Origin: a virus
Virus record (IMG/VR): IMGVR_UViG_3300037096_000048
Coordinates: 1 to 57,117 of that record
Strand: one strand, 5' to 3'
DNA: 57,117 nt
The notes beneath the pieces are model-generated. The model was not told where the DNA came from and searched no databases. It saw only the letters and a list, made by a program, of their open reading frames with translations. Positions 10,785 to 38,709 of this stretch are shown here, piece by piece (the first letter of the stretch is position 1; every line of letters starts with the position of its first letter). The translations under genes and the position numbers were made by a program.

Positions 10785-11366
10785 ATGAAGATATTTACTA
10801 TTGCTGACATTCGTTCGTGGAGACCTTGCTATGACCCTATTAAGCACATTTCTGAAACTTGGGAAGGAACAGCTATTGACATCTTGAAAATGGAAAACAT
10901 TACTTTTGCTGACCGACTATGGGTTGTATTGCGTATTGAATTAGTTTCAGAACGTGTTATGAGACTATTTGCAGTATGGTCCTATAGACAAACCCTTGTT
11001 TTTATTAAAGACCCCGATCTTAGAAGTATCGAATGTGCAAACGTGGCAGAAAGATTTGCTAACGGTGAAGCCACACGAGAAGAATTGTCGGCGGCGCGGT
11101 CAGCGGCGCGGTCGTCGGCGGAGTCAGCGGCGTGGTCAGCGGCGCGGTCAGCGGCGTGGTCAGCGGCGGGGTTAGCGGCGCGGTCGTCGGCGGAGTCGGC
11201 GGCGCGGTCGGCGGAGTCGGCGGCGTGGTCAGCGGCGCGGTCGTCGGCGGAGTCGGCGGCGCGGTTGGCGCGGTCGGCGGCGTGGTCAGCGGCGTGGTCA
11301 GCGGCGTATTCGGCTCAATGTGAGAAACTAATTGAAATGATCGAAAAGGAAAATGGTTTGATATGA
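10785..11366 (+). CDS. SAAx tetrapeptide-repeat protein (Imm-5-like family)
   Basis: The 193-residue protein has two parts. Residues 1-100 form a helical domain (IADIRSWRPCYDPIKH, DRLWVVLRIELVSERVMRLFAVW). Residues about 101-179 are a tetrapeptide repeat, SAAx with x mostly R, W or E, ending in a short charged helix. The architecture recalls the widespread Ala-rich proteins that databases link to the Imm-5 putative immunity family; I infer this from pattern only. The repeat should form a long alanine-faced helix. The DNA of the repeat is nearly identical from unit to unit, so copy number can change by slippage. The function is unknown. Confidence 0.75.
   Translation: MKIFTIADIRSWRPCYDPIKHISETWEGTAIDILKMENITFADRLWVVLRIELVSERVMRLFAVWSYRQTLVFIKDPDLRSIECANVAERFANGEATREELSAARSAARSSAESAAWSAARSAAWSAAGLAARSSAESAARSAESAAWSAARSSAESAARLARSAAWSAAWSAAYSAQCEKLIEMIEKENGLI
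11088..11314 (+). repeat. Tandem 12-bp repeats encoding SAAx
   Basis: Short G/C-rich units of the type gcggcgtggtca and gcggcgcggtcg follow one another with few interruptions. Because no unit contains a stop codon in several frames, long spurious frames exist on both strands here. The composition is far more G-rich than the flanks. A short remnant of the same pattern (gtggtcgcggtcggcggc) lies at about 11904-11922 inside the 35-codon gene at 11866. Confidence 0.9.
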
Positions 11367-35272: not shown

Positions 35273-35430
35273 TGACGACTTGTGTTTGCTGTGGGTTTTC
35301 ATCCGCCTACGCGGATATATATTTAGAACATGTTTGCAGTGTAAAACGAGAGCTGACTGGCGCAGAAAAAGCGGTTGACGCCGCTTGGGAACTGCAGTAC
35401 GATCTAAGTAAAGGGAGACTCAACAAATGA
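35269..35430 (+). CDS. Small zinc-finger-like protein (53 aa)
   Basis: ATG at 35269 overlaps the preceding stop and has an AGGAG site. The N-terminus MMTTCVCCGFSSAYADIYLEHVC has the C-x2-C...H-x-C pattern of a compact C2H2/C2HC finger, followed by a helical tail. It may bind DNA, RNA or protein. No family is recognised. It overlaps the next gene by ATGA. Confidence 0.6.
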   Translation: MMTTCVCCGFSSAYADIYLEHVCSVKRELTGAEKAVDAAWELQYDLSKGRLNK

Positions 35431-35846
35431 ACAAAGAAATTATGGAAGTACTAGCTAGCTTAGCAGCGGGCCTGCATGGAGATATCATAGAGGCGTATGT
35501 AACCAGCCCGACGATAGAGGAAGCTGAAAAACTGGCAGCCAAGTTTTTATCCGGTCAAATACATGCCGCTAATGCATTGCGCATCACTGACCTGGATGCT
35601 AGGATGCGCAAAGCTGGAGTCAAATCAGTCCGCGCCGCTGTGTACCTAGAAGAGTGTAACAAAAAAGACAAGAAACCTACCGAAGCCACGCTAATCGCTT
35701 TGATTGATAGTAATGCTCTGGTATGTAGTGAGCAGGTGGCATTCGACACTGCAGAAGTTGACCGCGACTTGCTTCAGAACTACTTCAATGTCTTCAAAGA
35801 GGCACATATTTATTTTCGTGGCCTTAGTCGGGGTCGTTTCGAATGA
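35427..35846 (+). CDS. Hypothetical early protein (139 aa)
   Basis: The 139-residue protein is mostly helical (IMEVLASLAAGLHGDIIEA, ALRITDLDARMRKAGVKSVR, DLLQNYFNVFKEAHIYFR). It is coupled by ATGA overlaps at both ends and sits two genes before the RecA-like gene. The helical repeats and charge suggest an oligomeric protein, perhaps a recombination mediator, but nothing in the sequence proves that. Confidence 0.6.
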   Translation: MNKEIMEVLASLAAGLHGDIIEAYVTSPTIEEAEKLAAKFLSGQIHAANALRITDLDARMRKAGVKSVRAAVYLEECNKKDKKPTEATLIALIDSNALVCSEQVAFDTAEVDRDLLQNYFNVFKEAHIYFRGLSRGRFE

Positions 35847-35926
35847 CAAATCTTTTAGTATACTCTGGAATAGTAGCCGTTTTTTCAATCATGTTTTTTT
35901 TATTCATCTGTGTATTTAAAAGTTAA
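35843..35926 (+). CDS. 27-residue membrane micropeptide
   Basis: ATG at 35843 overlaps the upstream stop (ATGA). The peptide is one membrane span (LLVYSGIVAVFSIMFFLFIC) with a short basic end (FKS). The overlap supports real translation. It is the third very small single-span protein in this genome, after those at 10025 and 51552. It ends two bases before the structured RNA element. Confidence 0.5.
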   Translation: MTNLLVYSGIVAVFSIMFFLFICVFKS

Positions 35927-35928
35927 AT

Positions 35929-36059
35929 AAAGTTTTCCGGCAGCGGTGTGGGTATCCTTAAGGACACACAGTCCTAGAGTCAAACGGGATGGCCAGCTAG
36001 AATAAGGGCAAGAATAGGCTGGAGTTGTGAGTACCGAATCTCACCTGCCGGAAAACTTT
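35929..36059 (+). ncRNA. Candidate structured RNA before the recA-like gene
   Basis: AAAGTTTTCCGGCAG (35929-35943) pairs perfectly with CTGCCGGAAAACTTT (36045-36059), a 15-bp closing stem around 101 bases. Inside are three hairpins: GTGTG/CACAC continuing into TCC/GGA with a TTAA loop (35946-35969), CCAGC/GCTGG (35993-36022), and GTGAG/CTCAC (36027-36044). A four-base bulge GGTA (35951-35954) can pair with TACC in the third loop (36032-36035), a possible pseudoknot. The recA ribosome binding site (GAGG) begins two bases after the stem. It matches no riboswitch or ribozyme family that I can recall. Confidence 0.6.
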
Positions 36060-36068
36060 TGAGGATCT

Positions 36069-36977
36069 ATGACCAAAATTGACGTAAATGAGATCGTAGT
36101 TAAGGCCCGCCTACTATACGGCAAGGACACAACAGGCGCTGCTATGCTGGCGACAGGTACTGTACTGCGTAGGCCGTCAAAACCGGAAGAATTCATCCTG
36201 GCACCCAAAGGTCATCCTTGGGTACAGCTGACTGGCACGCTGGGGCTTCCATATGATAGTATCATTCAGGTTGCAGGTGCATACGACTCTGGAAAGTCCA
36301 CCTTAGCCGGTGAATTTATGGCCTCAGCTCAGAAACAAGGCGCATATGTAATCCTTGGCGATTCAGAGAAAAAATTTGACAAGACTCGCTTTGATAAGCA
36401 CTTCGGCGGTGACTCTTCGCAACTGTTAGTCGTTCAAAGCACAATGATTCGCAAACTAGCGGGAGGAATGCTCAAATATGTCAAAACCATCAAAAGCGAC
36501 GATCCTAATTCTAAAATTTTACTTGTGCATGACAGTATTGGCGGTAGCGTTAGTCGCTCTAGAGCAGAGCGTGATATCGACGACGAAAAAAGCAACCAGC
36601 CAGGTAGCGAAGCCGTAGAAAACAGCGACTACATGAAACATATTGTGGCGACTATGGACAAGTACCCCGGCTCCATAACCCTGCTGCTGATCAACCAGAT
36701 GACAGATAAAATAGGTTTTGGGCAGAAAGGTCAGAGCCGCAGTGGTGGTCATAAGATTTCATTCCACTCCAGCCTTATCCTCGAAATGAAAAAGATCAAG
36801 ACCTTAACGAAACAAGTTAACAAAGTTGAGACCAAAGTTGGCATTATAACTCAAGCCAAAGTTGAGAAAAATCACCTCTCGACATCTGAAGTCTCAGTCA
36901 ATAAGATGAACATAATGGTAACGGCAAAAGGATGGCAGGAAACAGATTTCACCTTTGAAGGGAAAGACGATGAGTGA
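36069..36977 (+). CDS. RecA/UvsX-like recombinase
   Basis: The 302-residue RecA-fold ATPase has Walker A GAYDSGKST (about residues 69-77), the catalytic Glu region GDSEKKFD, Walker B ILLVHDS (about 149-155), a QMTDK segment after LLLIN, and the L2-like loop followed by GGHKISFHSSLILEMKKIK. It should form filaments on ssDNA and drive strand exchange, the entry step of recombination-dependent replication. Together with SbcD/SbcC-like proteins, an HNH and a UvsW-like helicase it forms a T4-style recombination set. It is the first gene after the structured RNA, which may control its translation. Confidence 0.85.
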   Translation: MTKIDVNEIVVKARLLYGKDTTGAAMLATGTVLRRPSKPEEFILAPKGHPWVQLTGTLGLPYDSIIQVAGAYDSGKSTLAGEFMASAQKQGAYVILGDSEKKFDKTRFDKHFGGDSSQLLVVQSTMIRKLAGGMLKYVKTIKSDDPNSKILLVHDSIGGSVSRSRAERDIDDEKSNQPGSEAVENSDYMKHIVATMDKYPGSITLLLINQMTDKIGFGQKGQSRSGGHKISFHSSLILEMKKIKTLTKQVNKVETKVGIITQAKVEKNHLSTSEVSVNKMNIMVTAKGWQETDFTFEGKDDE

Positions 36978-37389: not shown

Positions 37390-38709
37390 ATGACCAAAAT
37401 CGAAACCTTAACCGACTCGCAAAAAGCACTCCTCCCCGTCTATCGTGACCGCTGGTTAAAAATCGGTCTAGCCCCGGGTCCAGCTGACCGCCCGAAAGCC
37501 GAGGACGCAATCCGGCGCGCGTACCAGATAGTAGGGCTTGCGCCTCCAAAACAGATCGTCTGGAGCACATCCCCCCTCTCGGGGTGGCTCACGGTATGCT
37601 GTTTGCGAAATGACGACCTGATGAAAAAAATCTACGCTGATTTCCTGGAGCATTTGAAAGTCCCGGTAGAAACGGCAAAGTCACTTGAGCCGTGGACCTC
37701 GGTGGCAGACTCGGTGGGCCATTCTGTGCGAAACTCAGTGGCAGACTCGGTGGGCCATTCTGTGCGGGACTCGATGGTAGCCTCGGTGTGGGATTCGGTG
37801 CGAAACTCAGTGGTGAACTCGGTGCGAAACTCAGTGGCAGACTCGGTGGGCCATTCTGTGCGGGACTCGATGGTAGCCTCGGTGTGGGATTCGGTGCGAA
37901 ACTCAGTGTGGGACTCGGTGTGTGATTCGGTGCGAAACTCAGTGTGGGACTCGGTGCGAAATTCGGTGGGAGACTCGGTGCGGGTCTCTGTGTGGGCCTC
38001 GGTGGCAGACTCGGTGGTGGACTCGGTGGTGGACTCGGTGGGGGCTTCGGTGGTGGACTCGGTGAAAACTTTTGATTTTTCAGAAACCTGTTTTGGGTCT
38101 CATGACGCTAATTGGCTGGGCTTTTATCAGTATTTTCTCGAAGTGTTAAAAATCGAAGCCTGCGAAAAACTTCTCCCCCTCATGGATCTTTCGAAAGAAG
38201 GCGGTTGGTTTTACCCCTATCAAAACATTTGCGTTATCAGTGAGCGCCCATGTGAAATTCACATGGACGGGACGCAGATCCATCGGGACGGAGGACCGGC
38301 GATCCACTATATGGACGGTTTTGCGGTCTATGCGCTCCACGGCGTCCAGATACCCGAATGGCTCGTTATGACACCGAAGGAGGAACTCGACTCCACTAAA
38401 ATCCTCGCTCTCCCAAATGCCCAGCAGCGGGCCGAAGGGGTGAAAAAAATCGGGATCAGCGCGATGTTATCCGCGCTCAAATGGGAGCGGATTGACAAAA
38501 TGGATGGCTACGAGCTTGGTTCGATTGAGTATGAAGGACGGCGGATTGGGCCGTATCTGTCGATGCAAAATCCCAGTACGGGCGAGCGGCACGTGGAGGG
38601 AGTGGGAACACCCAATGGCGGAGTCGATGAAACTGTGAAAACATGCGAGCAGGCGCTTTCTTGGCGCAATGGAACCAAAACCTATATCAAACCGGAGATT
38701 ATTACATGA
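37390..38709 (+). CDS. DUF6745-type protein with SVxx tetrapeptide repeats
   Basis: The 439-residue protein has three parts: a helical N-terminal domain (about 1-100), a tetrapeptide repeat SVxx (about 101-225; phrases such as SVWDSVRNSV and SVADSVGHSV), and a conserved C-terminal domain (about 240-439) with PCEIHMDGTQIHRDGGPAI, GVQIPEWLVM and EGRRIGPYLSMQNPSTGERH, which I recognise as the DUF6745 type. That domain occurs in many bacteria and phages with the same kind of repeat. The activity is unknown. It overlaps the next gene by ATGA, and the two form a recurrent pair. Confidence 0.75.
   Translation: MTKIETLTDSQKALLPVYRDRWLKIGLAPGPADRPKAEDAIRRAYQIVGLAPPKQIVWSTSPLSGWLTVCCLRNDDLMKKIYADFLEHLKVPVETAKSLEPWTSVADSVGHSVRNSVADSVGHSVRDSMVASVWDSVRNSVVNSVRNSVADSVGHSVRDSMVASVWDSVRNSVWDSVCDSVRNSVWDSVRNSVGDSVRVSVWASVADSVVDSVVDSVGASVVDSVKTFDFSETCFGSHDANWLGFYQYFLEVLKIEACEKLLPLMDLSKEGGWFYPYQNICVISERPCEIHMDGTQIHRDGGPAIHYMDGFAVYALHGVQIPEWLVMTPKEELDSTKILALPNAQQRAEGVKKIGISAMLSALKWERIDKMDGYELGSIEYEGRRIGPYLSMQNPSTGERHVEGVGTPNGGVDETVKTCEQALSWRNGTKTYIKPEIIT
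37698..38063 (+). repeat. Tandem 12-bp repeats encoding SVxx
   Basis: Units of the type gactcggtgcga and aactcagtgtgg follow each other about thirty times. A longer block is itself duplicated: the stretch from 37738 recurs almost unchanged from 37834. This is typical of slippage and unequal exchange, so copy number is likely to vary between relatives. Assembly of this stretch from short reads could be collapsed or expanded. Confidence 0.9.

Follow-up and report, generated by a model that had tools for sequence, protein, structure and literature searches.

A structured non-coding element upstream of a phage recA gene, with a possible tRNA-like layout

In the virus record IMGVR_UViG_3300037096_000048, a non-coding element of 131 nt (35929-36059, + strand) closed by a long stem lies directly before a gene for a RecA-like recombinase. 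Its position raises the question of whether it is a control region of recA that is conserved among related phages, or something that entered the operon from elsewhere. The element was analysed within the window, i.e. the whole stretch of 57,117 nt that was studied, and compared with the corresponding junctions of related phages and with unrelated sequences.

The closing stem and its surroundings

The element consists of a 101-nt interior enclosed by the arms AAAGTTTTCCGGCAG (35929-35943) and CTGCCGGAAAACTTT (36045-36059). The arms form a perfect 15-bp inverted repeat, the longest perfect one in the window with a spacer of up to 200 nt. By chance, 0.005-0.01 inverted repeats of at least 15 bp are expected in the window, and in 30 Markov-simulated windows the longest perfect inverted repeat had 14 bp. 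The stem and interior had been described in a first-pass annotation made from the letters alone, and the coordinates given there were exact. The features around the stem are the following.

35427..35846, + strand: gene of a 139-aa partner protein, which adjoins recA in relatives
35843..35926, + strand: gene of a 27-aa hydrophobic membrane peptide, with an ATGA overlap with the upstream gene and a stop codon 2 nt before the element
35929..35943, + strand: 5' arm of the closing stem, an 8-nt leader part AAAGTTTT and the acceptor-like CCGGCAG, pairing perfectly with 36045-36059
36045..36059, + strand: 3' arm of the closing stem, the acceptor-like CTGCCGG and AAAACTTT
36061..36064, + strand: Shine-Dalgarno (SD) sequence GAGG of recA, outside the closing stem and 1 nt away from it
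36069..36977, + strand: RecA/UvsX-like recombinase gene (PHROG 97, E 1e-29; PDB RecA chains)

The identity of the downstream gene, predicted as recA-like, was verified by these protein matches. The gap of 142 nt between the peptide gene and recA is filled by the element, as had been noted, and the SD of recA is not sequestered by the closing stem. All other neighbouring genes of the operon overlap or are separated by no more than 55 nt, and its content of recA, SbcD and SbcC is that of an early replication operon. Elsewhere in the window, at 37390-38709 and 10785-11366, putative proteins of unassigned function carry long SV(W/R/A)DSV and SAA(W/R)SAAR repeats.

No open frame runs through the element, as stops are present in six of six frames. 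The window scan gave no terminator or promoter match within it, and the stem is not followed by a T run; an intrinsic terminator was therefore ruled out. Rfam, searched at gathering and permissive thresholds up to E 10 with the element alone and with its flanks, returned only chance matches. When the phages and plasmids of GenBank were searched with the element sequence, only matches of chance length were obtained. The earlier statements that the element is unassigned, neither coding nor a terminator were thus upheld. The initial observation of a long stem and a structured element filling the gap is confirmed, and the element is non-coding, structured and not a terminator.

The recA junction in related phages

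Scans with the single recA and helicase proteins found no close relatives. A search with the major capsid protein gave 44 relatives in IMG/VR, seven of which have a recA homologue, and RecA protein alignment gave 41 loci with the good matches at L342-L367. The junction was readable in 26 cases, namely 25 with a readable stretch upstream of recA and L342, whose contig begins at the apparent tail of the partner gene, overlapping recA. In the nearer relatives the partner gene is conserved upstream of recA, and in most cases its stop overlaps the recA start or lies directly beside it. Gaps before recA, where present, hold open reading frames. In the relative L264/L349, the slot of the 27-aa peptide of the window is taken by a transmembrane peptide that shows no detectable similarity to it.

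Neither the element nor a long-stem equivalent was found at the junction upstream of recA in any of the 26 recA-keeping IMG/VR relatives. The longest repeat at these junctions was 11 bp (L349) and was made of AT-rich coding sequence. Its absence from the 26 relatives argues that the element is an insertion in the lineage of the window, and on this sequence comparison we regard it as lineage-specific. The junction between the partner gene and recA is a hot spot in this phage family that often receives insertions. The element is restricted to one phage lineage, and a single natural copy with this interior is known.

Several other inverted repeats in the relatives were considered and rejected. 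Those of L301 and L334 match the element in length and at first looked like further members, but both are located between divergent genes, with SD sequences or start codons in their arms; that of L300 is within a gene and that of L337 is at a contig end. The repeats at L301:11900-12028 and L334:13710-13844 are perfect over 15 and 17 bp and about 130 bp across. Each arm pair contains the SD or start codon of both divergent genes; the repeats are possibly shared inverted control regions. The 20-bp repeat at L337:16297-16431 lies exactly at the contig end and is probably a fold-back assembly artefact. A different kind of insert was seen in L344, L351, L266 and L268, where endonuclease-like genes of the HNH or endonuclease VII type stand at the junction between the partner gene and recA.

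The layout of the interior

The interior contains the three 5-bp hairpins that the first-pass annotation had pointed out (GTGTG/CACAC, CCAGC/GCTGG and GTGAG/CTCAC), and 1.6% of shuffled interiors contain at least three hairpins of this kind. The whole element is more stable than its shuffles (z = -4.0) because of the closing stem. The interior alone shows no excess stability (z -0.09), and therefore the folding energy by itself gives the inner hairpins no support. A pseudoknot between GGTA and TACC had also been proposed; their complementarity was found, but in the minimum-free-energy fold they pair within a nested helix and form no pseudoknot. The fold with three hairpins reaches -41.0 kcal/mol, compared with -47.7 kcal/mol for the minimum-free-energy fold. 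When a fourth arm, GTCCT..GGGAT, that had been missed was added, -46.6 kcal/mol was obtained. The resulting five-helix cloverleaf is at most 1.1 kcal/mol above the minimum, the loop-loop contact being uncounted. Its inner arms are as follows.

35946..35969, + strand: D-arm-like hairpin GTGTG/CACAC, with a 2-nt linker to the stem and GGTA (35951-35954) opening the loop
35971..35990, + strand: anticodon-arm-like hairpin GTCCT-AGAGTCAAAC-GGGAT, 5 bp including two G-U pairs, with a 10-nt loop and a 1-nt linker to the D-like arm
35993..36022, + strand: variable-arm-like hairpin CCAGC/GCTGG, with a pairing probability of about 0.6
36027..36044, + strand: T-arm-like hairpin GTGAG-TACCGAAT-CTCAC, with a G-C closing pair, the loop end CGAAT and a 0-nt linker to the 3' arm

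The anticodon-like arm competes with an AGGAC/GTCCT hairpin of the minimum-free-energy fold. TACC at 36032-36035 in the T-like loop is complementary to the GGTA of the D-like loop.

The order of these parts follows that of a class-II tRNA: the acceptor-like stem, 2 nt, the D-like arm, 1 nt, the anticodon-like arm, the variable arm, 4 nt, and the 5-bp T-like arm directly on the acceptor-like stem. The arm order and linker lengths of the cloverleaf were compared with a template for the T, D and anticodon arms, in which the T-arm has no linker, the D-arm follows after 1-3 nt and the anticodon arm after 0-2 nt, with generous loop sizes. The element fits this template. At its default threshold, ARAGORN did not call the element. 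When introns were allowed and the threshold was set to 92%, its matches in the window were the genuine tRNA-Met and tRNA-His and the element (35936-36053), the latter requiring a 36-nt 'intron' and with the anticodon and variable arms drawn differently. Among shuffled interiors, 1.5e-5 of 200,000 satisfied the template and 8 of 20,000 with the same stem scored as high in relaxed ARAGORN; both tests were picked after inspection of the sequence, which makes these p-values optimistic, and the template was not derived from this sequence. A T-arm alone at this position was found in 0.18% of shuffles, and one with a CRANY-type loop in none. The tRNA-like layout is supported by these statistics.

The element shares with class-II tRNA genes (Leu/Ser type, RF00005) the four- to five-arm cloverleaf order, the 2-nt and 1-nt linkers, the variable arm, the 5-bp T-like arm on the acceptor, the G-C pair closing the T-loop and the complementarity of D-loop and T-loop. 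It differs from them in its 15-bp acceptor, and a true tRNA was ruled out on several grounds. The RF00005 covariance model gave no match at E<=10 with the element alone or with its flanks. A 7-nt anticodon loop with U33 and a usable anticodon was not found, the loop AGAGTCAAAC having 10 nt in the five-helix fold. The canonical U8, A14 and T-loop TTC are missing, no CCA is encoded, and the 36-nt intron is needed. Like tRNA-like structures and decayed tRNA genes, the element combines a cloverleaf with the lack of a decoding sequence and shows a pattern of gain and loss between relatives. Unlike them, it is an intercistronic spacer in an operon, and no related intact tRNA with this interior was found.

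Single tRNA genes, variable and in some cases odd, stand in intergenic slots of other phages of the family, so gain and decay of tRNA genes is a natural background here. Odd single genes were seen at L231:3360-3444, L313:5269-5353, L251:3419-3503 and L337:5243-5327; one of them has the anticodon CTA and is a possible amber suppressor, and one has a long variable arm and the anticodon GTT. We give somewhat less than an even chance to the reading that the element is a tRNA-derived or tRNA-mimicking intercistronic insert of class II, of which a decayed, functionless tRNA gene would be the limiting case. The arms and the GGTA/TACC contact of the first-pass annotation are better read as parts of a tRNA-like cloverleaf, and its interpretation as a whole is partly supported.

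A second element and the competing explanations

A scan with the stem pattern gave 55 stretches, all of which looked like chance, mostly in coding sequence, except L015. This 4.5-kb contig comes from an unrelated phage. Its 124-nt element has the identical 15-nt 5' arm, a nearly matching 3' arm (12-bp stem) and a different interior; oriented like the element of the window, it follows a stop codon and precedes an SD. For a random 15-mer occurring 95 times in phage sequence, a 12-bp partner arm at such spacing has a probability of 0.017, the match in position being uncounted. The likeness of the two interiors is p about 0.15, the L015 interior folds no better than its shuffles, and relaxed ARAGORN did not call it tRNA-like. 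It fits a relaxed layout with another loop-loop contact (CGTC/GACG, compared with GGTA/TACC in the window), as do 0.36% of shuffled L015 interiors at a tolerance that was set after inspection. L015 may be a second member, may be linked by the stem sequence alone, or may be a coincidence. Conceivably, both elements are members of a hitherto undescribed family of tRNA-like RNAs in phages, inserted precisely where a stop codon is followed by the SD of the next gene. Recognition by some factor would preserve the sequence of the acceptor-like stem and the arms would drift, while the 5' and 3' hairpins stacked on the stem would maintain contact between their loops through changes in both partners. 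We consider such a family distinctly unlikely.

When 1.26 Mb of phage sequence was searched with a covariance model of the closing stem built from the two sequences, no additional member was detected. L080 and L136 resembled L015 at first and were rejected, as they are located within tail-fibre-like coding sequence; the match in G018 was attributed to chance. Terminal-repeat patterns at other spacings and in bacterial genomes gave coding or repeat matches, with the exception of L015. In six ruminant Neisseriaceae MAGs (L180, L186, L188, L198, L200 and L203), AGTCTGCCGGAAA was observed in many copies on either strand, some of them paired in tandem or inverted, and may be an undescribed dialect of DNA uptake sequence.

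Several explanations compete with the tRNA-like insert. If the element were a generic stem-loop between cistrons, the long closing stem alone would matter and the interior would be filler; the stem could insulate translation, stabilise the message or mark it for RNase III, or bring the upstream stop beside the recA SD for re-initiation across the 142-nt gap. The energies of both interiors, no better than those of shuffles, agree with this, and so does the placement of the two stems, which begin at the stop codon and run, in the same orientation, to a point just short of the next SD. There is a precedent in T4 genes 38 and 25, where an over-long spacing is shortened by a hairpin (PMC3014915). 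These split ribosome-binding sites are likewise phage intercistronic structures at a translation start found in only part of a phage group. The T4 hairpin sits between SD and AUG at a spacing of 22-27 nt (PMC3014915), whereas the window element precedes the SD and has 131 nt. A stem-loop of this kind leaves the tRNA-like arm spacing unexplained, as well as the stem sequence, and not just its pairing, that is common to L015, and we hold it to be somewhat unlikely. The perfect 15-bp arms could instead be the terminal inverted repeats of a MITE-like mobile element whose transposase is supplied in trans. The insertion relative to all relatives fits this, as does the occurrence of the same 5' arm and a near-matching 3' arm around a different interior in an unrelated phage. 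The mycobacteriophage elements MPME1/2 are comparable ultra-small phage insertions with inverted repeats and an empty site in relatives. They have about 440 bp, a 123-residue ORF and several near-identical copies (PMC3029335, PMC4351075), in contrast to the 131 bp of the window element, which has no ORF and no second copy with the same interior. By inspection, no target-site duplication was seen in the flanks of the window and L015 elements, each genome has a single copy, and the two insertions occupy exactly the interval from a stop codon to an SD. Matches of the 15-mer in IMG/VR have no above-chance partner arm at insertion-sequence distance, and the 41 matches in bacterial genomes all resemble coding or uptake-repeat matches. 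Scans of IMG/VR and GTDB contigs with these patterns found neither further copies nor a transposase-bearing parent element. On the whole, a mobile element of this type appears improbable.

A cis-acting recA leader conserved in this phage group, i.e. the riboswitch or translational switch that had been suggested at first, would account for the stable closing stem just upstream of the recA SD. The element is absent from every recA-keeping relative examined, which is a stronger result than the missing covariation that the first-pass annotation had named as a refutation. Together with the lack of an Rfam match and the SD that is left accessible by the stem, this largely refutes a leader, which we regard as extremely improbable. 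With one sequence from a single metagenomic contig, a chance inverted repeat or an assembly artefact has also to be weighed, as long inverted repeats occur at contig ends in the family (L337) and other 15-bp repeats occur in relatives. The chance expectation for the window, the location inside the contig, the exact fill of the intergenic gap and the match in L015 all speak against it, and it is very unlikely.

If the tRNA-like reading is correct, the insert would fold as a cloverleaf in the polycistronic mRNA, with the acceptor-like helix extended from 7 to 15 bp and stacked on the T-like arm, the D-like arm beginning after a 2-nt linker, and D-loop and T-loop meeting at the elbow through GGTA/TACC. 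The relatives probably translate recA by direct overlap or near-abutment of its start with the stop of the partner gene. In the window, the element parts recA from the upstream cistron and leaves the SD free one base outside the stem. The likeliest effect would be that recA translation is insulated from the coupled chain of genes before it; the element might also offer a site of RNase P- or RNase III-like processing, or of protection, on the 5' side of the recA-SbcDC message. If the element has a role at all, we infer that it is that of a spacer between cistrons, an insulator or a site of processing.

Whichever reading holds, the comparison provides an empty site for the element in about two dozen relatives. 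Should the tRNA-like reading fail, the striking stem before recA would still stand as a recently inserted feature rather than a conserved switch. Should it be true, a tRNA-derived fold would serve as punctuation inside a replication-gene message in this phage group, and the well-known turnover of phage tRNA genes would be linked to the origin of new regulatory or processing elements.
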